NCBI GenBank assembly: GCA_963920665.1
Contig: OY987272.1
Span: 15,691,001-15,755,000 of the forward strand
From: Straminergon stramineum
Lineage: Eukaryota; Streptophyta; Bryopsida; Hypnales; Calliergonaceae
Reading direction: 5' to 3'
Length of the DNA: 64,000 bases
Numbering within the stretch: the first letter of the stretch is position 1; each line of letters starts with the position of its first letter. Below are positions 20,244 to 53,489 of this stretch, one piece after another. The notes below the pieces were generated by a model. The model had not been told where the DNA came from, did not search any database, and worked only from the letters and a program-made list of their open reading frames with translations. The position numbers and the translations under genes were made by a program.

Positions 20244-22570
20244 GTGAGGTAGTTCTCAGGCCTGCTCGTTTTGCCTGCCAAGTTGCAATTGTGCAGGCAC
20301 ACCCAGCTGAGGTCCGGCAAGAATTTTTTTCAGAAAATGTTTTGGAAGTCTGATCTATACTAGCTGCACATTAGATGTAGTGATGAGGTGAGACTGTGAC
20401 ACACAATTCCATCCACATCTATTGTGGCGATCAACGGAATAGAAATTAAGCAGAGCTAGCGAATTTAATTATCCTAGGCATACTTGTAGGAGGAAAGATG
20501 ACCTTTTTCACCTTAGTGCTGAGTATTAAGACGTTGCTGTCTCCATAACCTAAGTTTAAGGTCAGCTTTAAGAGGAGCTCGTAGTCACGAACCACGTGAA
20601 CTATGTTCCAGAAGAATTTGTCATCTTGATTTTTGGCTACTTTCATTTCTATTCCGGTTTTCCTTTTGAAATATAGATTCCAGATTCAGAAGGGGATTCT
20701 TTTGCTGTTCAAAAATTGAGTGTCAATATTTCGATGTAATCAATTTTAGAAGTATTTGGAATTCAGGTTTCGTTTCTGATGTATAATATTCGAGACAACA
20801 ATAGAAAATCTAACCGTTCACATGTAATTCAAAATTCAGAATCTTTTGTTTATACATAAGTACTAAATTGTTGTTATTATAAGGCTTTCCAGAATTTTAA
20901 ATCAAGAGAAATTAGGTTATTGGAGTCTTTTAAAAAGTTTTTGTGATTTATTATTACTCGCACAAACTTGTTGCAATGCTACATTAAATTGAAGAGAATA
21001 TAGTTTGGATAGCCCATTGAAGTCTTATAGAATTGGATGAAAAACATTCAGGATGACATGATGCAATATGTGATGAAAATGTGACCATTTTTGTGACAAT
21101 AAGTCTTGATAGGGTTGTGACAATGTGTATTTAATATAATAAATTGTGTGAGGTCATAGATATGGTAGAATATTGTTTTGAATTTAGCGAAAACTTGTAG
21201 ATTCTAGCAAAGCTTTAATCCTAAATGCCTAGTTCCATTGCCATGTGGTAAGACTGTGTTTTTGAGCTTAATTTAGTCTATTCAATCCTATTCAAGTTTC
21301 AATGTAATGTTTTTGTTACACAAGATTATGTGTTATCAAAAATTTCTATATTACTAGTTTTGGAACAAATTTTTAAACTAACAAGTGGAATAAATTAATA
21401 AATATAATACAAAAAATCCAATTAATTTGGGATTTTTTCCTAAGGTAAAAGTAGACATGAAGAATAGTAGGAAAGATTTTCAAGTAATTCTTTTCTTTTT
21501 TACACTCAAAGCACACATGGCAATGATCACCAAGCCAAATTGCCACTACAAAGATACATTTAGCATTCACATAATGGATTGGTAACATTTCGATGATTTG
21601 TGTATGAGATTAAACACTCTATGAGACTATTAGAATTATGTACATGTTTGTTTTCTTTACAATTTTTAGTTGACAAAATAAAATTACTGTGATTTTTGAA
21701 GTGAAATTTGTATATATTTTTTTCAATGGAAATAAGTATTAAAACAATGTGGAATTTTCACCAAAAATGAAGGTTAGAATGAAAAATAATAATTTGTAAT
21801 TTGAATTTGAAATTCTATCATAGACAAAAACTCAAAAGAAATACATGCAATGTCAATGGTGTTCTTTGGATTTGAACATGAAGAGCTTCCAATTGCAATA
21901 ACTCATTCAATTTTGGATTTTTTCAAATTTTTGATATGGAGTAGAAAGATATCTTATTAGGCTTCATTTTCTAAGTTTAAATCAAAATAAAAAATAGATA
22001 CTTTGAAAGTTAAAATCACTAAGGCACATGGACTTTGTAGATGCTAAGATCTAGAGGCATTATTTGATTTCTAGGCCAATGAATAGCCCATACCTTCTAA
22101 ACATCCATTTTGTTTTTATTCGTGTGGTACAAATCAATCTTATAAGACAAGTGCAACAATCTTAGATTTAGGTTCTAAAATAAAGATGGAATACATAATG
22201 ATGGAATTAAGTGTAGTCACCTTATGTTGCTAGAGCTATAGTTAAGTGAACAAATTTGTCTAGATAGGCATGATCGATGCATACCTGTTGAATACTCCTT
22301 TTGTCCCAAAATTATTTAAGTCTACTTTGAATGTTAGATTTTTTTAAGGTTGTTTTGAGTAGGTTATATGGAGACTTCCTTGTGGCTAATTTTATTTAGA
22401 TTGCAATGAACACATGCAATGCTCTTTATTGATTCTGGTGTTATAAAAATTGGAACCTTTCTTCATTATGATTTTCACAGTATGATCAATGAAATCAGCA
22501 TAAAAAATTTTTAACCAAATAGTGGATAATCATTTTGGGATGGAAGGAGTAATATGTTGAGTGGTCCAAG
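20244..22570. other. 3' UTR then AT-rich spacer, no gene seen
   Basis: The first few hundred bases after the stop are probably 3' UTR of the HEAT gene. Beyond that the sequence is AT-rich with only chance ORFs. Confidence 0.55.
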
Positions 22571-22793
22571 TACTACAAGAGAAAGGGGGGTTTTAAGTGA
22601 GTTTTAAAATATAGTCCTAGACATAAGATTATAAGCAATGACCTTTAAGGAGATTTTTAGTAAAACCATTTTTAGAAATACATTTGTTTCTAGTAAAATT
22701 TTACTAAAAATCTCCTTAAAGGTCATTGCTTATAATCTTATGTTTAAGACTATATTTTAAAACTCATTTAAAACACCCCTTTTTCTTGTAGTA
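22571..22793. mobile_element. 223-bp near-perfect hairpin MITE
   Basis: The sequence folds back on itself almost perfectly: tactacaagagaaagggg at the left end and cccctttttcttgtagta at the right, with a short loop around 22670-22690. CTACAAGAAAAAGGGG-type ends flanked by TA resemble those of plant miniature inverted-repeat elements. No ORF. Confidence 0.85.
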
Positions 22794-28249: not shown

Positions 28250-28340
28250 TATGGATGTTCACCAACGACGCTAGCGTGCGAGCTTGGAGCGGTGAGCTTG
28301 CGAGCTGCGAGCGGGGAACTTGTGAGCGGTGAGCCCCTAA
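28250..28340. repeat. GC-rich GAGCTTGCGAGC-type repeat patch
   Basis: Iterated gcgagcttg / gtgagc units in AT-rich DNA. A reverse-complement relative lies at about 48255-48305 (cacaagctcacgctcacagg), and both patches contain gctagcgtgcgagc or its complement. Confidence 0.6.
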
Positions 28341-29550
28341 ACCCTATTTTTTGGAGATTTAAGGGTCAATTTTTTTTTTTCATTTTTTTTAGAAAAAATT
28401 GAGGAAAACTTACTATTTATAGTAAATTTAGTGACCTATGACCGTGGATCCTATGACCGTGGATTGTCATAAGATTTTACACTTTCTGGTTTAGGGTTCT
28501 AGGGAGCTATGCATCGGGCTTGCAAAATTTTGTGCATAGGGCGATGAATTTCTTTATTAACTACGGTAGAGAATATGTAAACCGCTTAATGTATAGGAAA
28601 CTCATGTCACTTTGGAAATAGTGAATTATAATTTTGTGATTCACTTTAGTTCATGCAGAGAATCCTATCTTCTAAGTAGTGCATATGTATAAGAATTTCC
28701 AGCATGCGCTAATACAAGAAGGCACGTGTAGGGTGAGTTGGCAATTGATGGGTTTAGGGTGATATAGGTAGGACATATCCTTGTGGTAGAAAGCTCACTC
28801 TCATTTGTAAGCGTGTTGCACTCAATATTTTTAAATTGTAAGAATTAATCTTAGGTAGAATCTAATTTGATGCCACTTGCTTACATGTGACTTGAATTTG
28901 TAGAAAATTATAGAAACAAGTCAGTTATAAAAGATAGAACATGTTCTACAAAGAAATGAAAAAAACAAGTCATGAAAGTGAGGACTCAAATGAATAGAAA
29001 GAGTGCCCAAAAAATTGGAAGCAAAGGAATAGAAAAGGAGAGTAAGTATAAAATGGGAAGTGAGGACATGAATGGGTAGTCAATCTAAAGAAAATGGAAG
29101 CAAAATTGGAAGTTTGGTAAAAAAGAATGGAAGAAGAAATGAAAATGAAACGAAAAACTTTCAAATTAGAAGTGCAGAGGATATAAAAAAAAGGTGAAGG
29201 ACAAGGAAATTAAGATGACAAAAAAATGGGAAGGGTAATCCAAGCGAAGTGCAGATTGAAAAGAATAAGAAAGACAACTGAGATAAACGAATCCAGAAAA
29301 AAATGAAGTACGGAGGCAAAATATAAAATGAATTGAATTAAACAGAATTTCATATCTGCGATAGTAAGTTACGATCACAAATTCTGATCATTCACGGGAA
29401 CATGCTTCAAAACACTTCATGAATGACATATATTCTAATACTTAGGAAATGCGGAGACCTTTTCCATTCCAAAATCGCTTAATCATTTGAATCATAACAT
29501 ATGTAAATGAATACAATACAAATGAAGTGTTCTTGAAAAGGAATCCATGC
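28341..29550. other. Spacer downstream of the transposase gene, purine-rich on +
   Basis: The part at about 28930-29330 is strongly A/G-rich on the plus strand (repeated gtgaggac, tgggaag, gaaaatg words), producing T/C-rich chance ORFs on the minus strand. No gene recognised. Confidence 0.5.
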
Positions 29551-32500
29551 CTATTCGGGAATTCTAATAATTCCAGCTCGAACTAGAAGGAGTTTCAATT
29601 CATTGAAGCTATAACTAGGTGCATGAATGAATTTGTCTTCATTGACATCCATCTTGCAAAAGTACCTGTACAAGTAGTAAGAGTGTTTGCAATTCACATA
29701 TTGTTGTCGACCTCCAATTGCAGAAACAACCATATTTGTGAAGTCAGGGCATGTGCACGTGGGGAACATGCCAATTGTAATTCGGTAGACGTTTTTGTGA
29801 GGGTCTATCCCTGTCTCTAGTGAGACTATTGCACCTAGGCCCGGTTGGGGGAGTAAGGTCACTTCTAGGATTTGCCCTCTAATATTTCCTGCACTCTCCC
29901 ACTTGTTCCGTTGCTCTGTAGTTGGTGCATTTGCAATCCTCTGAATAGTTCGGCTGTTCCTAGTTGTTGGATATGCATTTGCATTTGGGGGTGGTAGTTG
30001 GTCAAATAAGGCAGTCTTGAAAATCTTTGACATGTTGAAAAGTCGACGTGGCGACAACGTAGGGCGTTGTTGGAGTTGAAATCCCGCATGTTGCAAGAGT
30101 AGAGTTTCTTCCCAACTAAGGTGTGTCCTTGATAGAACTGGCCAAACCTCCGGCACAGCTGGCCAATCTATTATCCATTTCCGTTTCGACCCTTTCACAC
30201 AACGTTCAATGTCATCCAAACAAAACCAAAAGTCAACCACCACTTCTCGTTTAGTACCATAATCTATTTTTCTACCTCGATAAGTTGGAGTAGGGTTACC
30301 TTTCCTTCCCCTTGCAATTTTGGCAGAGCACTTGATATTTGACCCCTGTTGTTGAGCGTGACATTTTGCATTCGATTTGTGGATAATCCTCGCAATGTGC
30401 CACTTTGATGTATCACAATCACTTTCATATGCAACAGTGACATGTGGACAAATATTTGTATCCGCCTCTTTACCTTTCCCTCCCAACATCTCCGTAGAAT
30501 TTGTTGTGGACCTCGTACGCACACGCGGTTGAGAGAAATTCACTTTGTCTGGTCTATGTGAATCTCCAGCATCTCCTATGGGTACATCCAACTTCCTCTT
30601 TGTACTTCCAAAGATCTCTTCTCCTTCTAAATGTGGTAATCGATTTCGAAGACCCTCTGCTCCAGGTAAAGTGTTGAGTGCTTCAGCTATTTTCTTTGGA
30701 TCTCTACTTCGAGTGGCAACCCTCAACTTCAATTCGTTCTTCGATGGACCAGAGCCATGTGCATGACCTCTGAGGTATGCTCGATAATTTGTCATTTGCA
30801 TCCAAGCACGAATACTGTCGTCACAAGTCGCATCAAATAAGTTGTTTCCTCTTTTTCCGGACATTTGGAGCCACTTATTATGGACTGTTTCTGATAAATT
30901 ACACGATGGCAGGTCCAGCATTTCCTCCAAATTCAATTTCTAAAAATGAAGACAAGTTTAGCCAACAGTTAGTACTTCACTTTGAAAACTTCACAGATAT
31001 TTGTAATTATAGATAGTTTCGTGGTGACGTGGTCGAATGAACATGTCCTATCATAAAATGAACGATATTCAAAGACAATTTCAATTACACCTATATGACT
31101 ATATAAAAATACAGCAACACAATCTTCTTTCAACTTCTTGGGACAAGGAAGTACTCACATCTTACATGTGGACTCTCAAGAATTTCATGTTCCTTTAAAG
31201 ACACCCAAAAGAGGGGGTCTAGTAAACACCATGAAGAGTTTCATCGGACCTGACATATGCTCTTTTATTGTTTCGTAGACCCCCTCTTCTGGATACCGTT
31301 GAAGAATAGCTCAGAGAATTTCAAATTATAAAATGAAGTTCTTTTGGTATTCTACATCATTGGAAAACAAAATAAAATATATGTAGCAAGGTAAGTTTAT
31401 CTCTGCATTATATGGTGTGACACCATCAAAAACTGAAATCTCCTTATGCATAGAAATAAGTATTTTACTCATCATGTCCATGAAGCCTCCCCACTGTCGA
31501 TATCGAAAATGCTAGAATGCTAGCCAATGGTCTAAGTGATGAATTGCTTCTTCGTTTGCAGCTCCGGATGATAGCCACCATGATCAAATTGCTAGATAAC
31601 GTGTCTCTACTTGATCCATATTCTTGGAATCTTTGTATTGCTTACACAGAGAAATATGTTGTTGTTGAAGCGCTTCCTTGATGTACTTCTCGGAGTGTTT
31701 ATGAAGAGAACTACTCCAATTCAGCAAACAAGTCCTCTCACGATTCTCCATTTCCTCATTGGCAGATCCGCTGCCGTAGACAATCCGGACCGCATTCCAA
31801 TTGGCTATAGCACTGTCTGCCATAAATCCTTTAAAGTTTGGATTTGGTACTCCATGTTGTGCCATGACAGTGTTTAAGCTCCTCCAAAATTGTACTTGCA
31901 CCTCAGTATCTTTAGACTGCATATCACACACTGCAATAGTCATTACCTTCTTGTACTCAACATCATACACGTGGCAGGCCATTGTGGTCCACTCCTTCAC
32001 GCGCTTCACGTGGTCAAACATCAACCACGCATTCTATAGATTACCTCCGGCTTGCATGCGCCTTACAAAGTCCACTCCACTTCCGGGTCCTTCTGTGAGC
32101 ATTTTGAAGATATAAACCTTCTCCTTCCCTTGCCTAGGGAAGACGCTATCGTGTATGAATTCGAATTTGGACTCCTTCTTCATAGTCATAATGTTGTCAA
32201 TGATCCCCCCTCGATTGTTTGAGCGGAAAGAGGCGATCACGTTCCGTATATTTGGACTACTGAGATATTGGAAGCGGTCCATAACCTCCTCCATTTCCTC
32301 CCCCTTCAGTAACTCCTTCTTTCCATCTCCGTTGTGAAATAGATAGTTCGTTAAGAACTCTTTACTAGCGGATAGAGCAATTGCTGAGTTTGTAGCCGAT
32401 GGTGTTCTAGCCACCTGTTCTTCAATGAGTCCACAAATTTCCTCTGTAGAATCTCTATACATGCCCTTCGCCACCGGGTGGTTGTGCTCTCCGAAGTGAA

Positions 32501-33629
32501 TAGCGGCCCTACTCATTTCTAGGTTGTCACTAAAAGCATAGTATATCCTAGCATTGCAAGGGCTAAGACATGAAGGTGGTTTCCTACACACTTTGCAAAC
32601 TAGGGTACTGTCTTTGGGAGGTCCATCTCCAACTACAAAAGGAATCGATGTGAAGCCACTCCACTCAGTTTCATTCCTCTTTGAAGTTCTATTCAAATAA
32701 TCACAATTTGGGTTCACACAAGCAAGATGGCTTGCACAGTGGGACTTACGGAACTTGAGGTTGTCAGAGTTGTTGATGTTTGTGGTCATGAGCCTACACC
32801 ACGGGTGTCCATCATAGCGCTTGTCCATTCCTTCCAAGCTCCGCGCCAATGAAGACGAAGTGGAGCGACATGGTGGTATTTCAAAAATGATATCTCCATC
32901 AAATACTGCCGAAAGAAAAGAAACATGCTGGTGCTTCATGACGCTAAAATCCATTATAGACAATTCGTTTCGAGATCGATGCATGGTGGCTAGTCTCTTC
33001 AAACAATCTATTATACTTACTCTGTGGCTTGGATACGGATGCAATAGAGGGCGAGGCAATGAGGATTGCAATTGACTACTTGATGGACTCTCAAATGTAG
33101 AGTTCAATAGAGCCCTTCCACTGATTGTAGTTCCAATAGAACATCCTGAATTGTGGACAGTCAATTCAGGAGACTCTCCATCTGATTCACTAGATAGTTC
33201 TATAATTGGATCTAATTTCTCTATCTTTACGGCATGAAGTAATGAAGGCTTCAGAAGAACCTGAGGAATTTGATGACTTCCACTAGGTGAAACAACGTGT
33301 CCTATATATGGCATATTTACTATTGAATTGTCTGATTGCCGACTCAACATCTGAGTGGAACAATCTAGCATGGAAAGAGGGAGTCTATATGCCCTGTAGT
33401 TCCCGAGGGAGAGGTACCAACAATATCCTTCATCTTCTGCAGATTTGACAACAGGGACAAATTCTTTCACTTTGCCTGACTCCGACATCCTCTCTTCTTC
33501 AACATAGATGGAGGACTCTACAAATCTAAATCGGACGTGGAGAAGGTGACTAAGGACTCTAGCACGTCCTCCATTCTCTATGGGAAACATAAGAGGGACT
33601 TCATGACCGTCTACTCGAATGCAAGCCAT
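29551..33629 (-). pseudogene. Decayed Mutator-like (MULE-type) transposase gene
   Basis: The first exon runs from ATG 33629 to about 31400 in one frame, but is broken by in-frame stops at 32036-32034 (TAG), 31586-31584 (TGA) and 31514-31512 (TAG). The last exon, up to 30936, ends at 29551. Zinc-ligand clusters (CVNPNCDYLNR, CKVCRKPP) and IHFGEHNHPV resemble WRKY/GCM1/FLYWCH-type DNA-binding fingers. A MULE-like core follows (AVCDMQSKDTEVQVQFWRSL, FKGFMADSAIANWNAV), then WHFRYRQWGG-like residues with W replaced by a stop. The last exon has a SWIM finger (CTCPDF...CKHSYY). Three stops that each fit one C-to-T change, with the rest of the frame open, suggest recent inactivation by methyl-cytosine decay. 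An intron of several hundred bp containing a 70-bp palindromic element separates the exons; its donor is unclear. Whether these are terminal-repeat MULE remains is not visible. Confidence 0.75.
31214..31283. repeat. 70-bp palindromic element, copy 1
   Basis: Exactly 70 bp from GGGGTC to GACCCC, with core ATCGGACCTGAC at 31243-31254, centred in the element. The stem continues outward (agaggggg / cccccct). It lies in the intron of the transposase gene. The core is the most diverged of the stand-alone copies. Confidence 0.8.
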
Positions 33630-34390
33630 CTCAAGAACTAGTGCATAGAGTTGTGAAATGGAGACCCGTAATCCTTAGCATTGGATGAGGAAGAGAAGAA
33701 TTTGAAGGAGCTGAATGGGTTGATCACCGTCAATTGTATCAAACTGTGAAATAGTACTAGTACTCTATTCAACATTTAGGGTCATTACGAATAGATCTTC
33801 CAAATCCTTTTATTGCCAAGCCCTCCGCCACCATCCGCTTAAATTACAGTACGATCATGTGCCGCCATGTACATTGAATAGCTACTGACATGTACTGCAA
33901 TTGACTTGTACTAAATTACTGTCAGTACCCGACTAGCCATCATCTGCATTTAGTAAGTACTGACCCTCCAACCATTTAATCTTTTTTTACACTAACCACC
34001 ATCTACTACAAAGCCTGACCATGCCAACCCTTTCCTAAGCCGCCTTTAACACCCTTTACTGCACCCTTTTTCGAAAGATTCATAAATGCATGGTGGCCGC
34101 CCCTTGCATGTCATTGGAGTTCATGGAATTTGTCAGATTTTCATACGGATTAGCTGGCCTTGAACTATGATTGATTACGGCACAACAAGCTAGCTTTGAT
34201 GAAACACTTTGTCACTGCAAACAGAAGCCTCTGTCATCACTGCAATTTCATTGTGACATTGTATGCTTCTAGACCATTCCTTTGAACTTTACAAATAGAA
34301 ACCATTTCTGCTAGGTAGAGCCATTGCATACTTTCGTTTCTGAGCACTCATTGGATTTTAGAGTGTTAGATTCCATGTAGTCATGTTTTC

Positions 34391-34678
34391 ATGTTTGTAG
34401 AGAACTTGGGCATGTCCATTCCTAGTACATTGTTGAGGAGGAAAAATAGGCGTCGCTCTTTGTATTTCTCATCTCGTAAGGAACTGCAGAGATCTAGAAT
34501 GACTCAAGGGAAGAAAGTCATGTCGAAAACAGGTCAGGCTATAGCGGCCGACCTTCGCAAAGCACTTTGCTTTACCACCGGAGATGGGAGTGGGGAAGAC
34601 ACTGCTCGAGCGAAGGACTTGGAGGTATTGCAAGAGATGTCGGAGGATACGACAGGAGGACAAGATGAAGGATCGTAG
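34391..34678 (+). CDS. Unknown 95-aa ORF
   Basis: A basic N-terminus (LRRKNRRRSLYFSSRKELQR) is followed by an acidic, Gly/Thr-rich tail ending in GGQDEGS and a TAG stop. No domain recognised and no visible splice partners. It sits about 760 bp from the transposase start on the opposite strand. It could be an exon of the accessory element or chance. Confidence 0.3.
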   Translation: MFVENLGMSIPSTLLRRKNRRRSLYFSSRKELQRSRMTQGKKVMSKTGQAIAADLRKALCFTTGDGSGEDTARAKDLEVLQEMSEDTTGGQDEGS

Positions 34679-36952
34679 GAGGTCGCTGCTTCTGTAAGAA
34701 CCTAACAAAATCATTCCTCCTCTTTAGTTTGTTCACAATCATTGCATTTCATGGAAATTCGATAGCAAAGAACAAATGTGTTTTAAAACCCTTGAACTCT
34801 TGATGTCATTTTCTACTCCATTGTTCACATAAATTTTGTTCTCCATATTCAAATGACTATAGGCCTCTTGTAGTTCCTGCGTGCCTTAATTAAAGAATCT
34901 TTACATGAGTCATTTGTGGAAGTCACCTTAAAAAAAAATTGAGCTTCTCCTATTGCACTTATCCTATTTCATGTATGCCATCTTTCTGTAGTGAATATGT
35001 CAATGTGGGAAGTAGGTCTTTAAAGAAACACAAATTTTGGACAATGACAGCATAAATTTAGCCTTGCCTCTCTTTCGTTAGCCAACAAAAGTAGAATTTT
35101 GTATATGTTCAGGATATTTGAGGAACATAAAAAAAAGAAGTTTTCTACTTTGAATGGATTCAAATCAAATCAGCTAAGAATAGAGAAGATAAGGACTTCA
35201 AAGGCAGGGACTAAAAAAGATGCTTCGTCCTTCTGTTTCATTAGATTTATGGAGAATAAAAACATATGAGCACACCCTTACAAGAGCCTTCTTTGGCAAG
35301 TACACAATTTCATTGTGGTTGTATTCATATCTAATTCTTGCATTTTCTATGTATACTTCTATTTAGATTCAGAAATGCTCATTGTATGCTAATGAGCCAA
35401 ATTTAGAGAAAGGCATAATTGGTCCCTAAGTCCTCCAGAAAATGAAGGATGTGTTTGTTACAGAAGACCACAAACTGTAAGTCATTCTTAGAAAATGTAA
35501 TCTTCAAAATAAAGAATATTATGAATCCTAAAATAAAATAAAGGACAATTTCACTATCTGGTATAGAGAAAATTGAAAATAAAATAAAGTTTTCAAGGGA
35601 ATTGAAAATCCCATAGGTGTTCATTAATCAATTTTCAATTGTTAACTTTCGTGAAGGATTCCTTTAGAGCTCCTTATGCACACCATTCTCAAACCTTTTA
35701 AGCCCCCCTTGAAGATTGATGCCAGTAATTTGTAGACCATATTACATATGGAATTCTTTTAGATTTTAAAAGAATGCCTTCACAGTGAAATCATTCTTTG
35801 AAAGAATGATTCCAAGCATAGAATGTATGTTTTGAATGCCTTTTCCCCCAAAAGGACTAAGTTGCTCTAATTTCTTTTTGGTTAACTAATTACTAGTATA
35901 CTTTTAGAGAAGCTTTCTTTACCTTTCCATATTCAATAATTCTACCCTCTAACTTGAATTGACTTAGGGATAATAAAATCAAATTCTCATAAGTATCAAA
36001 GTTAATAAAATAAAATATTTATCAAAAAAGGACCCAATATTAAATAATTGAAAGATACACTATAGTCTTTTGGAATACAAAATCTTTCCTTTTAATCAAA
36101 ATGTAGAAATCAATTAAAGAACAAGGTCTATCCTAACCTTTGATATGGTACCAATTTGTAGAAGAATGTAATTAATGGATTTGAATAGTCTTAGAACTTA
36201 CATTAGAGCACATGGTGACCAATGTGTTCGGGCTTGGCAATATGTCGAGTAATTTCACCTCTAAGATCACCTTTCACTTGGGGGGTTTGATTAGCAAACA
36301 TTTTTTGCTAAGAAGCGACTAATCTTTTTAAAGGAAATATTTAGCTTAATATTCTTCCTTATAAGTGGATGACATCTCTAATTTGCTACCAATCTTGGGG
36401 TGGTTTTGATCAATTTGGATGAATAATCCTCCATTCATATGAATCAATTAAACTTCACATATAGATTGCAAATTCTATGAACTGCCAAGGTTGTAAATAC
36501 ATTCACCTACTACTGATTATCTCTTTAGACAATCCCTACATGGCTACAACAAATGGAAATAAAATCTCTACGTTTACCAACCTCATAGATAATAAATTAT
36601 AGTAAAATTTCCAATACACCTGCGTACAATGATTGAATGGTCTAAAACTCTATCTGAGCTTCTTTTGATAATAATGTACTCCCTATGTCACCATTCATAG
36701 CTATAGTAGTGCTTCAGATTTCGTCTGTATAGCAAGCTTACGTACTGAATGAGTCCTTCATCAAAATTTCAATGATTTCGAATAAATAATTCTTCGCCAA
36801 CAAAACTGATGGACGGCAATCGACCACACATCCAATTGAAAATAGTAACAACGGCAAAGGGAAATCGAAAGCATATCCTGTGAAAATTAGTAACAATGCT
36901 GGATAAGTACCATTCCAAATTCGACAGAACTCTAGGTGGCGTGGTAGTACCT

Positions 36953-37080
36953 GCATGGTCAACTAGATTACTGTATGGCCAACTGGATTACCGCATGGCC
37001 AACTAGATAACTGCATCGGCAGTCCTTGCATGGCCAACTTGATTACTGAATTAGCAGTCAGTGCATGGCCAAGTAGCCTA
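36953..37080 (+). repeat. Short tandem repeat, catggccaactagattactg units
   Basis: About five imperfect units of a 20-bp word (catggccaactagattactg), partly separated by 15-bp ggcagtc-containing words. Located about 130 bp upstream of the first candidate exon at 37206, so possibly in its promoter. Confidence 0.65.
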
Positions 37081-37205
37081 GCCGATTCTCAGTCTGTAGC
37101 ACTGCTCATCTTCTCCACCTCGATAGTTCTCTATAATCTCCTCAATCGATTTGAGGGTACTCCACGTTCTCATTACTTTGAAATCTTGCTGAGCAGGAAG
37201 GCAGG

Positions 37206-40200
37206 ATGACAAGGAATACGAGGCGGCGGTTTAGAGTTGATGCAAACTTGGAGGAAGCTCGTCGACAGGAGACGGAGACTCCAACTCCTCCTGTGCAGCA
37301 GGTTTGCATTTCCTTTGTAGTTAGATTTCACTTTGTGCACTCACTATTGATGAATGTGCAAGTTCTAATCATTCTTAATGAGATTGGAGTTCGTCGACCG
37401 GTTGTAGGGGATCGTTAGCAGTTTAGATTTTGTCTTCCGAAGGTCTGCTTTCCTGGTGCTTAGCACGTCCTTTTTCTGATTTCCATTTCAGCAATATGAT
37501 AAGAATCCTCAGTTTCCGTTTCAACACCAGTACCTCTGTTTCTAAAGGTCCCCTCCCACTGCTCCTCTTTGGACTTGCAATCTCGTTTGCTGTCCAATAA
37601 TTAGGGACCGAGCACTACTAGGATAAACCGACGAGATGCGAGCGTTCATGGTGTCCGCTTTTGATTCATTTTCTTTGAGTCCAAGCAGTTGGAACTTTAC
37701 TCAAATGTTTGGCGAGAAAGGGCTGGATGAAGATCCCGTAGGTCTAAGTAAATGGAATTTCGAGAATGTTGGATCCGACGCCATACCCAGCAGCTAGACG
37801 AGGACCCTGACGATGAATTCTCTTTTTGGTGCTCACGCCAGACTTGGCAGCATTCAGTGCTTTCAAATTTGGAACAGAACTGGGTGCCCTGTTGCTCAAC
37901 ACGTCCTTTTTCTAATTTCAATTTTTAAAAAATAGGATAGTCCTCCTCCTTTTCGATTTAAGCACTAGTAGCTCTGTTTGTAAAGGTCCCCTCCCGGTGC
38001 TCCTCTTCGGACTCGTAATCTCGTTTGCTGTCCAATAATTAGGGACCAAGTACTGCTAAGCTAAACCGAGGAGATGCAAGTGTTCATCATGTGCGTATTT
38101 GAGTCATTTTCTTCAAGTGTCGGTAGTTTGAACCTTTCTAAAATTTCTGGCTAGAAAGTGTTGGATGAAGTTCTTGTAGGTCTAGCTACGTGGAAATTCG
38201 AGACTGTCGGATCCGACGCCATACCCGACAGCATTAGAAGGACCCCCATGATGAATTCTCATTCTGGTGCTCACGCCAGACTTTGGCAGCATTCAATGCT
38301 TTCAAATTTTTTTAGAAGTCGGTGCCCTGGCATTGAGCACGTCCTTTTCCCATTTCGATTTTAGAAATAGGGTAAGCGTCCTTGGTTTTCGTTTCAACAC
38401 CAGTAGCCCTGTTTGTAAAGGTCCCCTCCTGGTGCTCCTCTTCGGACTCGGAATCTCGTTTGCTGTCCAATAATTAGGGACCGAGTACTGCTAGGCTAAA
38501 CCAACGAGATGCGATCGTTCATGGTGTCCGCATTTGATTCCTTTTCTTCGAGTCCAGGCAGTTGGATTTTAGTGAAATTTCTGGCTAGAAAGTGTAGGAT
38601 GTAGATCCCGTAGGTCTAGCTCTGTGAAATTTCGAGAGTGTCGGATCCGACGCCTTACTTGGGAGCATTACGAGGACCCCCACGATGAATTTTCACTTTG
38701 GTGCTCGCGCTAGAAATTGCAGCATTCAGTGCTTTCAAATTTCCTTTGGAACTAGGTGCCCTGTTGCTGAACATGTCCTTTTTCGATTTCGATTTAGAAA
38801 TAGGATAATCCTCCTCCTTTTCGATTTAAACACTAGTAGCTCTGTTTGTAAAGGTTCCCTCCCTAGGCTCCTCTTCGAACGAGCAATCTCGTTTGCTGCC
38901 CCAAAATTTGGGACTGAGTACGGCTAGGATTTACCGACGAGATGCGAGCGTTCATGATGTGCGTGTTTGAGTCATTTTCTTCGAGTCTCAGCAGTTGGAA
39001 CTTTACTCAAATTTTTTGGCGAGAAAGGGTTGGATGAAGGTCCCATAGGTCTAGCTACATGGAAATTCGAGACTGTCGGATCCGACGCCATACCCGACAG
39101 CATTAGAAGGACCCCCACGACGAATTCTCATGCTGGTGCTCACGCCAGGCTTTGGCAGCATTCAGTGCTTTCAAATTATATTAGAACTTGGTGCGCTGGC
39201 ACTCAGCACATCCTTTTTCGATTTTGATTTTAGAAATAGGGTAAGCGTCCTAGATTTTCTTTTAAACACTAGTAGCTCTGTTTGTAAAGGTCCCCTCCCG
39301 GGGATCCTCGTCTCATGAGCCATCTCGTTTGCTGTCCAATATTTTGGGACCCAATATTGGTACCCTAAACCGACGAGATGCAACCGTCCATGGTGTCCGT
39401 GTTTAAGCCATTTTCTTCGAGTCCAGGCAGTTGTAACTTTACTCACATTTTTGGCGAGAAAGGGCCGGATCACGATCCCGTAGGTCTACATAAATGGAGT
39501 TTCGAGAATGTCGGATTCGACGCCATACCTGGCAGCTAGACGAGGACCCCCACGATGAATTTTCACTTTGGTGCTCGCGCCAGAATTGGCACCATTCAGT
39601 GCTTTCAAATTTTCGGTGGAACTGGGTGCCCAGTTGCTCAGCACGCCCTTTTTCCGATTTCGATTTTAGAAATAGGATAATCCTCTTCCTTTTCGATTTA
39701 AACACTAGTAGCTCTGTTTGTAAAGGTCCCCTCCCTGGGCTCCTCTTCGAACGAGCAATCTCGTTTGCTGTCCAAAAACTTTACTCAAATGTTTGGCGAG
39801 AAAGGGCTGGATCAAGATCCCGTAGGTCTAGCTACGTGGAATTTCGAGAGTGTCGGATCCGACGCCATACCCGGCAGCTAGACGAGGACCCCCACGATGA
39901 ATTCTCACTCTGGTGCTCATGCCTGATTTTGGTAGCATTCAGTGATTTAAAAGCTTCTTTAGAACTAGCTACCAAGTACCAATTGATATTGTTTTCACTT
40001 CAGTACTCCACTTTATCCTAGCAGGGGACTTGAATGAAGTTCCTTATTTGACATTTCAAGAGTGAATTTCATGAATTCTCGACTCCACCTCGTCAATTTA
40101 TAAGGATTATTGACAACTTCATTATCTCAATTAATTTGGTCATTTTCCTTGTTCTAGTCAGATGTAATGAAAGATATTATTAGGTTTAAGAGAGAGAGAT

Positions 40201-43200
40201 TATTTTGGAAAACGAGAAGAAGAACCTGGGGTCTAAATAAGATACTTTGGACCACTGTCGGATCCGACAGTACTTCTAGAAGCCCTTCCTTGACCCCCCA
40301 AATGTGTTTTTATGTGATATATATTTACATTTTTTATGTCTTTAATGCAAAAGAGTGAAAATTAATATATTTTGTTAGCTTCAGTTATATAACGTAAAAA
40401 GATTTAGTGTAGCAATTTTCTAACGCCCTAAAACCCAAATCATAGTGTACTTGATGTCATGGATGTTAGGGGTCCAGCAGATGCTTGACACTGTAGTGTC
40501 GGATCCGACGGTCCAATGTCAAGCATTTGCTTGACCCCCAAGATCTGGGACTTGTTTTCTTTGTTATACAATATTGCCCTTGTGATCCCAAACACATGGA
40601 ATTTTCCATTCTTCATAATTAAATTTGAATTCTCCAATTCCCAAGATCTTAAGGTTTGATGTTTAAGATCTCTTACGTTTGTTTTGGTTATTTAATATTG
40701 ACTGTTAGATATTTTACTATTGAACCTGATTTTCTCTTCAATATGAGAAAACATATTGGGGTGGTTATAAAGTGTACATTTTAGGATGTTTCATGTTAGT
40801 AGAATCATATGCGTTGTTTTGAAAATTGTGAATGCTAGATCTTTCAAACCTGTACATGAGTGGTCATTTCATCTTACAACATGTTGACATCTTTGCATAT
40901 TGTACATTGTAAGATCTTTCAAATGATAAGAATGTTTGATGTTTCTATTTCTAAGAAATCCTCACGCAAAGACATGTTCATATTGAAGTTTGTGAATGTT
41001 TCAAATTCCAATGAGTACTTCTACAAGTACTCCACTTGGGCCATTTTTTAATCAGAATTTCATTAGTTTGTTGTATGCAGATGTTGAGGGTTCCATTTGG
41101 TAGATTTGAGATTGACTTTCTAATTTATGTTTTGACACATTATTTGTGTGAAATGTGTTGATTGAAAAATAGGGAGGATGTAGAGGGAGTACAACCCTAA
41201 ATGCTCTTCAACCTCAAACTCTCCCAGTTGCTCATGAAGCAGGACCATCTCAGCCTTTCACACCAGCAAACAGAGCCATGGAGGTCTCCAATGAATCCAA
41301 AGAAGAAGAAGCTGATGGGGAAGATGTGGTAAGTTTCCATGATATCATGGATGCTGCTCACCGTGCTGCAGATGCTTTCGAGGTCTCATGTATGAGTAGG
41401 GTGAGTGACCCTGATGCACGTAGACACCATGAACATCTTGCTAGAATGCTAGAGTTTGCCAGATGCAGGACAATCGTAATGTCTCCTGAGAGTTCTGAGA
41501 CAGAGTATAGCTCAGAGAGTCAAGTATCCATTACTGTGGATGGGCCAATGTGGGAAGACACATGTCAATGTCATCATAGCACGATTCAAGGTAGACAGGA
41601 GGTTGTCATCATTCACCTCAGTTCCGACTCAAAGGGTGATGTAGACATTGATTGATTCCATTCACTTGGAGTCATTTTGTAAACCTATTGATTCATGCCC
41701 TTGCATGTCTAATTCATATGCTTATTCTACCTATTCTGAATTTATTAATGGTTCAATTGTACTCTGTTATTGCATTTGTAATCCTTGAATACATGTTAGA
41801 AATTAGGAATGTGCATCTTTCATTGTCAAATGGATTTCTTTTCCTAAGTTTGTGAATGTTGATTATATTTTATTGTTATAACAGCAGATGGATGTGTCTC
41901 CGATATTGTTGTCACAAGATGAGACCGTCATGGAGACTCAAATCAACAATGACACCCCTCAGCCGGACATTGAAGGTGATGATGAAGGGGAGTTCATAGA
42001 AGAGGATGTGGTGGTAGATGTCTTGGAGGAAGAAGACAAAGACTTGGACGAGGACGACTTGCGTTCGTATCACAAGGTAGATTTCATGAAGACCATCGCT
42101 TCGCTGAGGATGAAGCCCGACTATATGTTTCGATTGCAAATCCCACTCTGTTGAATGGTGGCTATGCCTATAGTGAGGCCAACACTTGCATGTGATTTGA
42201 AGTTGCTTGAGCAAGAGTTCAATAAAGGATACCGTGATGGAGCCGCAGTTTTTTATGTCACCACCACAAACGAAGCCGGAGAGAGTTCTGAATTCACGGA
42301 GGAGGAGATGGAAGGGTGGAATCCATTGTGGAGAAAGAGGAATGCCATTTTCAACGCCCAACTTGAGGCCATTCCCGAGTTGAGATTTCTGCAAAATCTG
42401 AAGTTCTTCGTTTGTGATGGTAATCATAGGCTACTTTCATGGATGACTCATATCACCAGGAAACACTCGAAGGAATGGGATTGGCACTATGCCATGGACT
42501 CTATTATTTTAGATATGAAGGGGAAGACAGAGTTGGTCATGCATGTCATGCATGACATAAATAAGTAAGTAATATATGCCCGCTTTGTGAATTTGGCATT
42601 TAATTCAATTTAGAATGTCACGTGAAAATGATGCATATGACTTACAAAACCCTAACAAATATTATCTCTATAAATTGTAGGTCTACCGAAGAGTCCCATG
42701 TGAAGACCAATCTAGTCCATACTTTATACCGGGTTCAAAAGTATGGACTACTTCCCATCGAGCGCTTCAACAAGATGTTGAGGCCATCAGAGCTCAAACG
42801 ATGTGGAGCCCCCAAAACCAGAAAGACTTGGTACACTATGCCACTAGAGGTCTTCACAACATTTCTTTTTCGGGTGAGAATTTTTTGGATGAAGATCATC
42901 CTAATTTTTTGTGGCTTCTATATGAACATTGTTATTGTATTATATTTTGACATTGATTTGAATGTGCTTGGTGTATTTTATTTTGGCTTCTCTCTTCCTC
43001 AATTATTTGAATTTTTTTAATTTATTGGATGTGTGCAGCAAGAAATAGCTCAGGCAATGGATGCAGCACTACGAAAGTACAATGAGATCACCCCAGAGCA
43101 AGAGAAAACTCCCGAGGGACTCGCACATGCTATGAGAGGTGGAGCAAAAGAGAAAATAGGCAAACTTAATGTGAAGATGATGAAGTTGGTCGTAGTGGCT

Positions 43201-46200
43201 AATCCCGCACATAAGCCGGAATTTTTGGAAGAGGTAAGTTTCCTGCATGAATTATCAATATATGACAATAGTCTCATATGGAGTTCAACTTGTAATTGAC
43301 ATTGTATATCTCTTGAGAGCAGGTTGAGAAACATTGGAGTGCAAATGAGGTCCCTAAGATGACTCTTGAGAAACTTCAAATGGTGGCCACATGCAACACC
43401 ACTCCTTTTGACAAGACCGAGTTTCTAAAGTGGTGGAACTCCTCAATACCTTCACGTGATGCTAGACGATTTCCACCTCAGCCAGTATCTGAGACATTGC
43501 TAGGCCCTTTCTTAAATAGATGCGTTTGGTATGCCGGGGTAAGTATTTGATTTGTAATAATTTTGATTTTAAGAGCTTTAGAGTTTTCAATTAATGAAAT
43601 TCTGTATTTTTATAGTTTTTATTCAGCAATATGTATATTTTGAATGTTAAATGATTTAGGGTGTTTACAGATTGAAGATGCAGCTACAGAATACTTTGAG
43701 AACGTGGTGAGGCAAGACCAAATCAACATCAACATGAATGTTCCACTCCAACCTGAGACCTTGGCCGAATATATAGAAGGTTGGAGGAGGAAGATTTGGG
43801 ATCAAGGCTTCATGGCTCACCTCAGAGGAACAAACTACTTCAGAAAAAGTGACAATTTCATGACTTATGAGGGGTCAAAGCAAGCGGTGCGAAGGGTGCT
43901 TTTTCGGTATGCTCAACCCATTGTCTAATGATTTGATTTACAATATTTCAATACTTTCAATTCTATAATGTCTAGATTTCTCTTTACCCTAAAACCCTAA
44001 ACCAGAAAAAAGACAATGAAACCCTGAACCCGAAATGGGGGGTCCTTGAGGTACCTTCCAAACCACTGTCGGATCCAACAGTGGTTTGTGAAAGACTTAC
44101 TGGACCCCACATTCTTATTCCCTCCAAACTCTTCAATGTAATGTTTTGAGCTAAATTTCGCTTAAGTTAAAATTAATGTTCTCAGGTAGTATTGCATGAA
44201 GTTCAGAGGTTGAAATAGTAGTCTTGCCTTCCTTGATATTTTTCTATTGATCATCGATGTCATTCTTTCTTATTTTGCTGGTACTTCAAGCATGAGCTTG
44301 AGGCAAAAGGGGCAATTGCAAAAAAGGACTTGCCTCCATTCCTCTCGAATTTTCTCGACCGTAGTTCCGCAGATTGCATGTACACTGCGAATCAACTCCG
44401 AACATATACCACAGCTCACCTTAGTGGAGGTGGATGGTACATTGATTGTCTGATCTCGTACATGCATCTATTAGAGGTTGAATTGCGAAATTCTTTGGAG
44501 GGAATTGGAACTATTGACATGGACGTGGACGAGTTCGCAGGGTTGACTGATAAACAAAGGGAGAGGGCCATTGCGAGGAGGGAAACCAATGACAAGAGAA
44601 AAGCAGCTCGGATCCAAGTTGCTTTGGAAAACAAAGAGAAGAAGGAGGCAGAGCGTGTGGCCAAGTTAGCAGAGAAGGAGAAGGAAAAGGAAAAGAACGA
44701 GAAGGCCAAGACAAAAGGGAAGAAAAAAGAAGATGGAGAAGGTGTTGTCCCAGCATCATCGACGGTAGATCAAGGCTTACAAATGGAAGCTGGAGTACAT
44801 AGTGGGATGAAGAGGAAGGCCGTATTGCCAGAGTTCACCGAAGAAATGGTCACCCAAGGCACACAAGTGATTGCCATAGGTGATGATGATGACGTGACAT
44901 CAAAGGAATTAGTGCTCAATGTCTCTATTGTAGACGTCGTTGACAATGAAATCAATGAGGGTCCAAATTGCTACACCGAAGTCATGGACTTTCTCGAAAA
45001 GGTAAACGAACTGTATTTTTTTGTAATCTAAAGTTTCACTATATTAGTACATTATCACCCCTTCTACATGATAGGGACTCACGAGTTTGAATTTGTTATG
45101 GCAGATGGCGGTAGGAAAGGCTCGGGTGTACAACGGGGTGGTCAATCAATGGCCAGGATTTGACCTCATGCTATTCGATTGCCAAGAAAATTTTCCAGTG
45201 CCGGGGGTGTCCTTTCCAGAGAATCATGTGCCTTATTGGAACTCAGATCCAGAGTACAACATGATCTATCAAGCATTTTGCTTTGCACAAAAGCATTTGC
45301 AGGATCACGGTTGCATTGTGGTGTTCCATTCATGGAGCATGGATGCCAAAAGCACCATTGCCAGATTATGTCAAGAGTACCCCAACATGGTGAAAAAGAA
45401 AGAGTGGATGGGCATGAATCAAGTGCACTTGACATCCGCTATTGACCAAACTAGCACAGTTCGATTTTATACATTCTTCAAAATTTTGTTTCCATTTCTC
45501 ATTTCATAATTCTCTTGAAATTCTATTTTATATATGTCTTGTTTTATGCTTGCAGACTTTGAAGTTCGGCATCACCCTCTTAGTAAAAGATCTAGGTGCA
45601 AAAGGAAAGTCCAATTTTTTCTTCAAACGGTCAACAACAATGCTGAAGGCCAAAGTTGACCTCAAGCGTGATGACTTGTTGATGAATTATACCACTGAGG
45701 ACTCCATGTTGATGAACAACATGGATCAAATGCCATGGCGCGGGGCTCGAGAGAAGGACACACGATTCATCCAATTTTTAATTGAAGGAACTACTGACGA
45801 GGGAGACTTGGTCCTCGATTGCACAACATCTCCAGGTTAGTTTGGCTTTTCAAAAGGTGGTTTTCAATTTTTATGTCATACCCTAAATCATTGAGATATT
45901 GATTACTGGTTGTTTTTTCAGGCGCCTCCATTATAGCATGTCGTGCAACGGGACGCCACATTGTGGCGTTGAAGTCGGATCAGACAATTTTTTCATCTAT
46001 CCTGGAGCCCATGAAGAAGACCACTCCTCCTATTGCAATAGTTGCGACTACTGAAGCACCTACGGTAGTAGCATCACAGGATCTAGATGCCATGATTATA
46101 GTACCTCGCAAGTTCATTCACCGAGCTAGACCTAGTAAGTAAGTTTCTCCATTTCTTAATTATTGGTGAGCATGGTAATTGAAATGCTTCACGATTCTAG

Positions 46201-46485
46201 CATTCAATGATTTGTGTTTGCAGCAATGAGGGATTGATGTCCGCAAATGTAGTCAAGAAGAGACGAAGACTTCTCCTGAGTCCGGAGAAAACGTTCGATC
46301 TTCCTGTGTATGCAGAGCAACTAGCTTCAGCATTTGCGGAGTTTGGTACTTCAAAACCCAAACATCGTAACCCTTCATATGCTTTAAATGTCTTACAATT
46401 CATAGACAGATCAGCATCCGAGGGGAAAGAGACCACAGATTCTTCTAGTGACATGGATTCTACAACCGAGTCTACTGCGACTTAG
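37206..46485 (+). CDS. ParB-like domain fused to bacterial-type DNA amino-methyltransferase, multi-exon, one in-frame stop
   Basis: Exons splicing in frame: 41888-42564, 42681-42873, 43039-43233, 43323-43538, 43671-43895, 44291-45001, 45105-45458, 45556-45835, 45922-46138, 46224-46485 (1,110 codons). Candidate 5' exons 37206-37301 and 41173-41328 (or to 41400) also fit in phase 0. Order: acidic N-terminus; ParB/sulfiredoxin-like segment (GYRDGAAVFYV, then CDGNHRLLSW near 42413-42442); long helical middle; charged Lys/Glu coiled coil (44550-44730); then a beta-class methyltransferase layout: LMLFDCQENF near 45165 where DPPY is expected, EKDTRFIQFLIEG (motif X), DLVLDCTTSPGAS...GRHIVALKSD (motif I, AdoMet site). 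Such fusions are known from phages and bacteria. A TGA at 42152-42154 interrupts an otherwise open gene. The missing DPPY suggests altered or lost catalysis. Introns show it is not contamination. The domain reading is inference from motifs. Confidence 0.6.
37440..39960 (+). repeat. 435-bp tandem satellite array, six units
   Basis: Units begin with a cctctgtttctaaaggtcccctccc-like stretch and contain the core palindrome at 37768, 38206, 38640, 39075, 39510 and 39852, spacing 438, 434, 435, 435 and 342 (the last unit has about 95 bp deleted). Each unit embeds the 70-bp element: in unit 2 TAGGTC starts at 38177 and GACCCC ends at 38246. The array is clearly GC-richer than its surroundings. ORFs inside it (for example 39494-40021) change from unit to unit and are not considered genes. 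It lies in the presumed first intron, or upstream, of the methyltransferase-like gene. Confidence 0.92.
40228..40297. repeat. 70-bp palindromic element, copy 2
   Basis: GGGGTC at 40228, GACCCC ending at 40297, core GTCGGATCCGAC at 40257-40268 extended to ACTGTCGGATCCGACAGT. Located between the tandem array and the coding exons of the methyltransferase-like gene. Confidence 0.88.
40469..40538. repeat. 70-bp palindromic element, copy 3
   Basis: GGGGTC at 40469, GACCCC ending at 40538, core GTCGGATCCGAC at 40498-40509. The flanking arms pair well (atgcttgaca against tgtcaagcat), giving a nearly full-length hairpin. Confidence 0.9.
44039..44108. repeat. 70-bp palindromic element, copy 4
   Basis: GGGGTC at 44039, GACCCC ending at 44108, core GTCGGATCCAAC at 44068-44079 inside caaaccactgt / acagtggtttg arms. 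It sits in the intron 43896-44290 of the methyltransferase-like gene. Confidence 0.88.
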
Positions 46486-46779
46486 GCTCATGAGATTGAT
46501 GTATCTTATGAGTCAACCCATTATGTTTTGATTTTCTTTATGATCGGTTTTGTGTGTTTTATGGCTACATGTTGTGTGATTCGTTTTCCTTCATTCTCTT
46601 GCATTCTTGGTTTTCTCTTCTAGTCAAGTATCATCTACCATGTCAATAATTAAAGTATAGGGTTTGCAGAAGTGAAATAAATGTACCCTATTCCAAGTGC
46701 GAAGTGTTTGATGAAGTGTCTAAATAAAAATATATATTTTGAAAAAGAATTAGATATTCACTCCAAGCGAAGTGGGTTC
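46486..46779. other. 3' flank of the methyltransferase-like gene
   Basis: T-rich stretch after the stop codon, probably 3' UTR; no further gene seen. Confidence 0.4.
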
Positions 46780-48050
46780 ATCCTAGAAAATGGGGTGGAA
46801 CCAAAATTAGAATAAGTAATGAATCATATCTAATGAATAACCCTTAGATAAAGATTTAGTAGTTCACACCAATTATAGTGTTAAATTCCAAAACCCTATT
46901 AGATAAAATAAAATAAAAAATCACACCATCCAAAAAATCTTTTTTAAATGATCAGTTCTGGAAAATTAAAATAAATTTAGAGCACCCAAAATGTCTTATG
47001 AAGGACATTTGGGTGTAAAAAATGAAAAAAAGTATTCCCTTATACCAATCATAGATCTTGAGCCACAACTAATAGGTTCTATTAAAATAATTATACATAG
47101 TAACAAATGATTTATAATAAGAGGAAATTCAGTGTCAAAATCCTAAGCCCTAATTATGCTATCCTAGAATTCTTCCTGGAAAGAAATTGGGGGTCAAATA
47201 AAAAAATAATTCCAATATGAGAATCTTCCTAATCATAATAGGGTTTGGAACACAAAAACCATTTCACAACAATCATAATCTCTTATCCCAAAATAGATGG
47301 TAAATAAAAATGTCTATACACTTATCCCTAAACATTAAACCACCAAAAATGGATGTAAGGAAGAAAAATACATTCATGCCAAATGTCCAAAAAGGTTTTT
47401 TTGGAAAAAAAATTGGGAGTGAAAAAAAATTACCATCATAGAAGAGTCTCTATGAGAAAATCTTGTGTGTGATAAATTATGAACATAACAATAAGAGTAG
47501 AATCTTCATAAACAAAATAGGGTTTTCAAAAAAATAACAACAATCAAGCCTTCATGAAAGAAATAGGGTGTGACAAAATCATACCCTAGACACAATAATG
47601 TTCATGAAAAAAAATTGTGTCTCAAAATTACATTACAACGACACGAGAGTCTTCATGAGGAAAAAAGGGTGAGAAAAAACATTACAACAATAGAGAGTCT
47701 CCATAGAAATATATTGAGTGTGAACAAAATACATTACAACCACGTCTTTGACTATTCGTCTTCATGAACAAAAAGGAATTTCAACATTACAACACAAGTG
47801 TATTCATGTGTATTCAAAGAGAAAATCAAGTCAATCCCACCTCAACCTAGAACACCAAAAAAATGGTGAGAATGAAAAATATATCGACATCATGTAGAGA
47901 GCCTCCAAAAAAATAAAGAGTGTCAAAGGATAAATATATTCTCATGACACACAGACTCTTCATGACAAATAAAATGGTTCCATTTCAAAAGAATATTATA
48001 CCAAACAAAGTGTCTTTCCAAAAAAATTCCAAAGTGAGAAAGTGACAGAT
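46780..48050 (+). repeat. Degenerate tandem repeats, about 50-60 bp unit
   Basis: Recurring words are gtcttcatgaa, aaatagggtgtga and acattacaacaa, in the same order, many times (clearest at 47420-47800). Units are diverged and A-rich. The ORF at 47570-47767 is a product of the repeats. Confidence 0.65.
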
Positions 48051-48059
48051 GGGAGGGTT

Positions 48060-48310
48060 TTAACCCTAAACCCTAAACCCTCTACCGGATGGTAAATTAA
48101 TGTCAAAGTATTTTTTCCTTAAATTCAAAGATCACTCAGAAATTGAGAAAACAGTGAAATAACCTTTCAATAAATTCCATATTTAGTGGAGCCACGGTAA
48201 TAGGCACATCCACGGACATGGGTACCTCACTCTTTTTTTCCTCTTTTATTTTTCCCACTCACAAGCTCACGCTCACAGGCTCGCACGCTAGCAACCCTGG
48301 GATGTTCACA
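48060..48310. repeat. Telomere-type CCCTAAA triplet and GC-rich patch
   Basis: taaccctaaaccctaaaccct at about 48060-48080 contains the plant telomere repeat three times. It is followed 170 bp later by a cacaagctcacgctcacagg patch, a reverse-complement relative of 28250-28340. Confidence 0.55.
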
Positions 48311-52800: not shown

Positions 52801-53489
52801 TTTTCTTGGCTTTTTCCATCACTCTTTATCTTGCACAATTTTTAGAGAATCTTTTTTTGAGCTTTAATTTTCATGCATACATTATTTTAAATGATTTAGA
52901 AATTATCCATATTTTATTTTATTTAAAAAATATTATTTCTAAAATCACTATAATGAGGCTATTTTGAAACAAATACCTGTGATCACAAAGACTTCACTAT
53001 ATGTCACTACAAATTCCATTCAAAGCCTTTATAGAAAGTGCGGTGAAAGGTTTTTAAAGAAAAATTCAAACTATCTTTAAAAATTTCAAGCAATTTTGTG
53101 AAAACATTAGAGGAAGTTTGGACTCTTCGGAGGGCTACTAGGAAGTGCCGGTAGGGACTCTCATTGCATTATATTTAATTCGCTTGAGGAACTTTTCCCC
53201 TATTTCTGTACTTCATCACTTCCAAATGTCAGAGCATTCACTCTCAAGTACTATTAGTTAGGGTTGTGACAAGTGTTGTTTTGATATTTGAAAGCACCCC
53301 CAAAGCACCTCCCTTTGACAATTGTGGAATAGAAAATTGAAATATACTTTTGGAACTCCCGATATTCACATAAGGTGAATCTTTGTTTTGTCAGAAAATT
53401 CCCTCTTTTGAGTAGCTTCAATAGGCTCTAGAAATAGACTGGCTTGTCAAACCCTCGCAGCCCTCTAGACAGTCCAAAATTTCTCCATT
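49835..53489. other. AT-rich spacer, no gene seen
   Basis: A lone fold-back terminus (gggtgattgcaagaaacac) starts at about 52272 without a visible partner. Otherwise there are only short ORFs. Confidence 0.55.

Follow-up and report, generated by a model that had tools for sequence, protein, structure and literature searches.

Palindromic 70-bp sites of fixed geometry in the non-coding DNA of a probably Mutator-like moss transposon

A 64,000-nucleotide stretch of the Straminergon stramineum genome (contig OY987272.1 of assembly GCA_963920665.1, positions 15,691,001 to 15,755,000 of the forward strand; hereafter “the window”, on contig C10 in our own labelling of the 326-Mb genome) was found to carry ten 70-bp palindromic sites, all of which fall in non-coding parts of a two-gene transposon of 20,037 bp. 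The sites form a real and selected family of fixed geometry, and this family belongs to one family of transposons. Our favored interpretation, to which we assign a probability of about 0.6, is that a large, probably Mutator-like element uses them as cis-acting sites, which an element-encoded protein reads in a role like that of VANC on VANDAL transposons. We infer the binder, its binding and its effect at the 70-bp sites from computational analysis.

Geometry, spacing and conservation of the sites

The ten sites in the window share one geometry: GGGGTC, 23 bp, the core GTCGGATCCGAC, 23 bp and GACCCC. Six of them lie in a tandem array of 435-bp units. The first-pass annotation of this DNA had listed four stand-alone units (beginning at 31214, 40228, 40469 and 44039), each exactly 70 bp long with a GGGGTC...GACCCC frame. 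Coordinates, lengths and frames were all verified and the four are real; the six array sites of like geometry had been overlooked. The 12-bp central palindrome is exact in 40228 and 40469 only, and has one mismatch in 44039 (GTCGGATCCAAC) and three in 31214 (ATCGGACCTGAC). In the array sites the left end reads TAGGTC and the arms lack complementarity (7–9 of 29 positions), with the frame in place. Self-complementary positions number 29 of 35 in site 40469, 25 of 35 in 44039 and fewer than 23 in the other two stand-alone sites; an unrelated AT-rich place at 53059 also attains 23.

Cores with no more than two mismatches occur ten times in the window versus 0.43 expected. When the two outer hexamers and the core were scored with a position-weight matrix (derived in part from the ten window sites themselves), the sites gave 33.0 to 46.5, the next best place in the 64 kb gave −2.0, and the maximum across five shuffled windows was 13.5. 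A core-like match at 45974, which lacks the frame and lies inside coding sequence, was taken as chance. Within the window array, the core and hexamers are 97–100% identical from unit to unit versus 82–84% on average for the remainder, where some 10-bp blocks are still 93–97% identical.

Genome-wide, 388 exact copies of the core were counted versus four for the reversed control, and the half-frame with its 23-bp spacing (GGGTC-N23-GTCGGAT, both strands) was found 467 times versus four for the control. Spacing was evaluated at core-picked loci together with the window, a set whose choice did not use the frame; here, of 24 non-redundant sites, 22 have a frame on one or both sides and 15 on both. 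At a gap of 23 bp, an exact GGGTC or GGGTAC end was present in 24 of 48 half-sites, while GGGTC was seen at other gaps five times at 39 and once each at 53, 65 and 70. The two unframed cores in this set are window 45974 and one at the end of a CACTA-like transposon (locus L009). The cores in L009, L019 and L022 have no frame and lie at an apparent transposon end, which we take to be of CACTA type. The first-pass annotation had made its defined unit depend on further copies of constant length elsewhere; copies are numerous, the loci examined show a constant half-length, and the defined unit survives.

Other features of the genome-wide set were recorded. At L005 6766–7121 and other loci the palindrome continues outward for up to 30 bp beyond the frame (GGGTCCCATTTTGAG...CTCAAAATGGGACCC); this extension constitutes the second GGGTC peak, at gap 39. 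Further tandem arrays with one 70-bp site per unit lie at L021 434–3549 (∼344-bp units), L012 1016–3006 (∼481 bp), L024 1472–2759 (∼429 bp) and L013 1588–3870 (690–830 bp). Core spacing is alike in C1:19094518–19099960 and C1:19175705–19181147, two clusters 81 kb apart that are probably a segmental duplication including the transposon. A match in a viral collection (L058), with a one-sided frame set by the search pattern and no transposon protein, was taken as chance.

Information per position is 1.1–1.9 bits in the outer hexamers and core and at most 0.51 bits in the 23 intervening positions, a contrast due partly to selection, as sites were picked by a core with no more than two mismatches and at least four of the six letters of GGGGTC at one end. 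For want of a frame, eleven of the 88 sites were excluded, including some real-looking ones that end in GGGTAG or GAGTAC. Pairing played no part in the choice of arms. Their inner positions nevertheless pair within sites at 0.492, versus 0.331 with arms permuted among sites (28 representatives; 0 of 10,000 permutations), and at 0.481 versus 0.312 in a larger set (33 representatives; 0 of 10,000), in which the two end triplets of a site are the same at 0.667 versus 0.456 when permuted. Note that many of the 140 framed sites underlying the larger set came from loci picked by GGGTC-N23-GTCGGAT, that L058 was omitted and some of the 33 representatives have a frame on one side only, and that one representative (L025 2285), situated outside the element, is probably a chance match. 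Spacer symmetry is thus not a universal requirement, given the asymmetric arms of the array sites in the window; some intron sites also pair at only 10–11 of 29 positions with the frame in place.

Both intergenic and intronic sites are present in the window (Table 1), and other copies of the transposon carry sites in the corresponding introns. Nine gene 1 introns, with bounds taken as BLAST alignment ends (plus strand, E 0.001), represent five lineages, between which only 18–29 bp at the core are alignable at the same threshold. In each of the eight with an intact core, the core lies 241–318 bases into the intron. These eight come from loci picked by the exact core, so that presence of the core is by selection and lack of other similarity is not. 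The window's gene 1 intron, with its three core mismatches, aligns with no other gene 1 intron. Of the gene 1 introns whose choice did not depend on an intact core, those of the window (the finding itself) and of L026 have a site, and that of L019 has none; L019 and L027, neither with a site, are counter-examples to this placement. Transposon proteins were found at 37 of 50 framed-site loci, some of which partly overlap; the other 13 are pieces of 1.0–3.0 kb, too short to judge. Fixed spacing, arm covariation and a core kept in otherwise unalignable introns thus bear out the first-pass annotation's suggestion of selection on a defined unit.

The transposon and its two genes

The ends of the transposon were located by alignment to a copy on contig C1 (28295–31718 at 97.7% and 45597–48299 at 98.0% identity; the stretch 31719–36215 of the C1 copy was left out of the comparison). 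A 10-bp target-site duplication is present at both copies, GGATGTTCAC in the window and a different sequence, ATTTCTACAT, on C1. For Mutator-like elements, duplications of 8–10 bp are described (PMC5225508; here and below, published descriptions come from excerpts of the cited papers). The terminal inverted repeats, long in many Mutator-like groups, are here short, 21 bp and imperfect (CAACGACGCTAGCGTGCGAGC/CAGGGTTGCTAGCGTGCGAGC), or ∼35 bp at 89% by BLAST. Because of the 10-bp duplications and the terminal repeats, the element, whose transposase domains are putative, is labelled as probably Mutator-like.

Table 1. Coordinates of the transposon, its genes and its 70-bp sites in the window
Feature	Position	Strand	Remarks
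Left target-site duplication, 10 bp	28253..28262	+	GGATGTTCAC
Transposon, 20,037 bp	28263..48299	.	terminal alignments to C1 copy stop here; ends read with the duplications
Left terminal inverted repeat	28263..28283	+	CAACGACGCTAGCGTGCGAGC
Gene 1, transposase-like	29551..33674	-	exons 33674-32034, ~32033-31584, short ~31511-31467, 30939-29551; from open reading frames
70-bp site	31214..31283	.	gene 1 intron; core with three mismatches
435-bp tandem array	37452..39775	.	between divergent genes; one site per unit; last partial unit to ~39975
Array site 1	37739..37808	.	
Array site 2	38177..38246	.	
Array site 3	38611..38680	.	
Array site 4	39046..39115	.	
Array site 5	39481..39550	.	
Array site 6	39823..39892	.	
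70-bp site, stand-alone	40228..40297	.	between divergent genes
70-bp site, stand-alone	40469..40538	.	between divergent genes; 29/35 positions complementary
Gene 2, many exons	41173..46142	+	ParB-like DGNHR motif in exon 42155-42568; N6/N4 DNA-methyltransferase-like C-terminus ~45104-46000; exons by eye
70-bp site	44039..44108	.	gene 2 intron (~43909-44265; bounds by eye using homologues P0106-P0109)
Right terminal inverted repeat	48279..48299	-	CAGGGTTGCTAGCGTGCGAGC on minus strand
Right target-site duplication, 10 bp	48300..48309	+	GGATGTTCAC

Neither gene matched a Pfam or NCBIfam family above cut-off. Mutator-like transposases have a WRKY/GCM-type zinc domain and a SWIM domain. A WRKY/GCM-like zinc domain appears with middling confidence in the fold model of P0004, a gene 1 homologue, and the C-terminus of gene 1 is SWIM-like, under the Pfam cut-off. 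Piece 32034–33629 of gene 1 has 102 homologues. Mutator-like transposases also have a DDE catalytic core of MULE type. P0001, P0002 and P0004 gave no match to a MULE model in Pfam, and Foldseek with the transposase model found nothing with an E value of 0.001 or lower; a D...D...C..H pattern was seen by eye only, in a region modelled with low confidence. Residues 1–88 of P0004 (homologue of 32034–33629, minus strand) are predicted to form a ubiquitin-like N-terminal domain, with matches to the TDP-43 N-terminal and DIX domains. Those domains polymerise head to tail, and the P0004 domain could help the transposase align on many sites.

The ParB assignment of gene 2 was made by eye only. Its comparison with PF01555 gave E 0.0076 and 16.7 bits versus a cut-off of 26.7, and that with CcrM gave E 0.048, far under the cut-off. 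Motif IV reads FDC[QP]EN, not DPPY, in four of four aligned sequences, and because of this degeneracy the methyltransferase-like region is probably not an active methylase. Gene 2 looks, weakly, like a fusion of ParB with a degenerate DNA methyltransferase; if so, its protein would put a bacterial methylase fold to an unusual new use in a eukaryote. Searches of solved structures, with the ParB-like exon and the methyltransferase-like profile as queries, returned nothing relevant, and homologue searches with gene 2 gave four and one proteins, all fragments without useful names.

Several observations stand apart from these genes. L027 1330–3011 holds a distant relative of both (38–39% identity), in which a ParB-like and a SWIM-like part lie near each other and which lacks a 70-bp site. 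A xyloglucan xylosyltransferase gene was also identified, which indicates a land plant as host. Elsewhere in the window are a foldback-like inverted repeat at 7720–8289 (266-nt arms, 86% complementary, 38-nt loop), a MITE-like one (MITE, miniature inverted-repeat transposable element) at 22571–22793 (95-nt arms, 95% complementary, 33-nt loop), and inverted repeats beginning TACTCCTTTTGTCCC at 22293–22551, which look like a Stowaway-type MITE.

Interpretation of the sites

In each site, the conserved blocks are an outer hexamer, a 12-bp core of two half-sites and a second outer hexamer, while the 23-bp spacers drift. Symmetric blocks at constant distances, with spacers that drift between them and with repeated placement in non-coding parts of the element, fit the site of a symmetric oligomer. 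We propose that such an oligomer of a transposon-encoded DNA-binding protein would occupy the site, candidate binders being the gene 1 transposase, with its WRKY/GCM-like zinc domain, and the ParB/methyltransferase-like protein of gene 2. The many sites would mark the element's own non-coding DNA, and the bound protein would activate the element's genes or protect them from silencing, the part played on VANDAL elements by VANC, under which the motif loses DNA methylation. A VANC-like role is proposed because VANC21 motifs of Arabidopsis VANDAL21 likewise lie in introns and upstream tandem repeats of that element's own genes (PMC5735166; PMC10398659).

End variants tend to agree inside one transposon and to differ between lineages, a tendency partly biased by the choice of loci; this agreement suggests joint change of sites and binder. 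Of 33 same-cluster pairs, 31 had their end class (GT or TA) in common, a level reached by 5 of 10,000 shuffles. Only the 34 sites with both ends agreeing in class were used, in 18 clusters, ten of which had at least two sites with dissimilar arms; a cluster is a group of sites within 12 kb and not a proven single transposon. The clusters at C1:11.27 Mb and C1:1.80 Mb (13 pairs) include GGGTC-picked loci, which biases them toward one class. Without these clusters 20 of 20 pairs agree, 16 of them from the closely related copies in the window and at C1:19.09 Mb. Disagreement was seen at C1:1.80 Mb, where the intron site is TA and the other sites are GT, and at C1:9.49 Mb and C1:19.35 Mb, where the intron sites (TAA/TTC) are unlike their own arrays (GTC). 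A search for zinc-domain residues that track the end class yielded nothing usable.

A DNA cruciform extruded by the palindrome, or an RNA hairpin formed in transcribed introns, would place selection on pairing itself. The arm covariation in both permutation sets is what this predicts, and RNA folds of the 70 nt reach −68.4 kcal/mol (z −15.2). We consider it unlikely, as the frame is kept in the poorly paired array and intron sites, the folds of seven out of the 22 framed sites do not go below z −2 relative to shuffles, the core sequence itself is conserved beyond pairing, and no known RNA family in Rfam was found at gathering score across 28000–48500. Internal transposase-binding sites that assemble the 20-kb element for excision, in the manner of subterminal repeats, are an improbable alternative: the outermost sites are more than 2.9 kb from the left end and more than 4.1 kb from the right, the introns of both genes would be an odd location, and the motif is missing from the 21-bp terminal repeats. 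The zinc domain of the transposase-like protein, modelled at middling confidence, would suit such a function, and Muta1 is a described Mutator-like element with subterminal tandem repeats (PMC5225508).

Recognition of the palindromes by a host activator or silencer, which the transposon exploits or suffers, seems quite improbable. The element-encoded binders named above are candidates, and 113 of 126 core substitutions over 140 sites (array copies included) are C-to-T or G-to-A, a bias that would match cytosine methylation of silenced copies. End variants that differ by lineage and agree within one (in a biased set) are a better fit to an element-encoded binder, and the sites accompany the transposon wherever the loci are long enough to judge. 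Independent movement of the 70-bp unit, which the first-pass annotation had also raised, would make it a MITE. Fixed length, symmetric ends and hundreds of copies are in keeping with this; however, flanking direct repeats of at least 5 bp are absent from four of four stand-alone units, copies recur at equivalent positions inside a single transposon family whose proteins accompany most framed loci, and the arms are far more variable than the ends and centre. This reading was rejected, and we give it almost no credence. Equally hard to credit is passive inheritance, in which the motif is old transposon sequence without function: the judgeable sites do sit in copies related by descent, but across intron lineages only the core is alignable, and arrays of differing period share the motif.

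If the favored interpretation, an element-encoded reader of the 70-bp sites, is true, dense target sites that differ by lineage fill the non-coding DNA of a transposon which, by the tests used here, is not a VANDAL. It would also be a case of joint change in both halves of a binding site over hundreds of copies, with implications for how selfish elements alter their recognised address. With its blocks at fixed distances, the site allows direct tests of the binder and of what it does to silencing. A more specific proposal, which we hold only tentatively and regard as doubtful, is that a catalytically dead, bacterial-type ParB–methyltransferase fusion has become the sequence-specific reader of the element's own 70-bp sites. 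This would be an independently evolved anti-silencing system, with site halves and reader changing together by lineage.

Comparison with known systems

The exact core GTCGGATCCGAC occurs in four papers, on unrelated subjects to judge by their titles. Nothing relevant was listed by literature searches on moss or bryophyte transposons that carry ParB or methyltransferase genes, or on palindromic sequences within VANDAL and Mutator-like elements; the wording of these searches was guessed, and absence from print is not implied. Fusions of ParB with a methyltransferase occur in bacteria and phages. Gene 2 is like these in its order, a ParB-like DGNHR motif followed by an N6/N4 methyltransferase-like region, and unlike them in having FDC[QP]EN for DPPY and similarity under database cut-offs. 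MITEs share with the 70-bp sites a short, symmetric and repeated form, whereas duplications were not found at the latter and independent placement was not seen.

Muta1, as excerpted, is a 3.2-kb element with 12-bp repeats within 145-bp terminal inverted repeats (PMC5225508). Like it and other Mutator-like elements with subterminal repeats, the present transposon has a target-site duplication within 8–10 bp and short motifs repeated inside the element; unlike Muta1, its sites are internal and 70 bp long, and its terminal repeats are short. VANDALs are described as lacking terminal inverted repeats (PMC6446971), which the present transposon has. The VANDAL21 motif is the 9-bp YAGTATTAY, with other motifs in other VANDALs, whereas the site described here is a symmetric multi-block unit of 70 bp; YAGTATTAY itself gave one match in the 64-kb window versus 1.95 expected, and hence no dense array of the VANDAL21 kind. 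By these tests the transposon is not a VANDAL. What it shares with VANDAL elements, as far as the excerpts describe them (PMC5735166; PMC10398659), is the presence of extra genes beside the transposase, dense motifs in non-coding tandem repeats and in introns of the element's genes, and variants specific to groups of copies.

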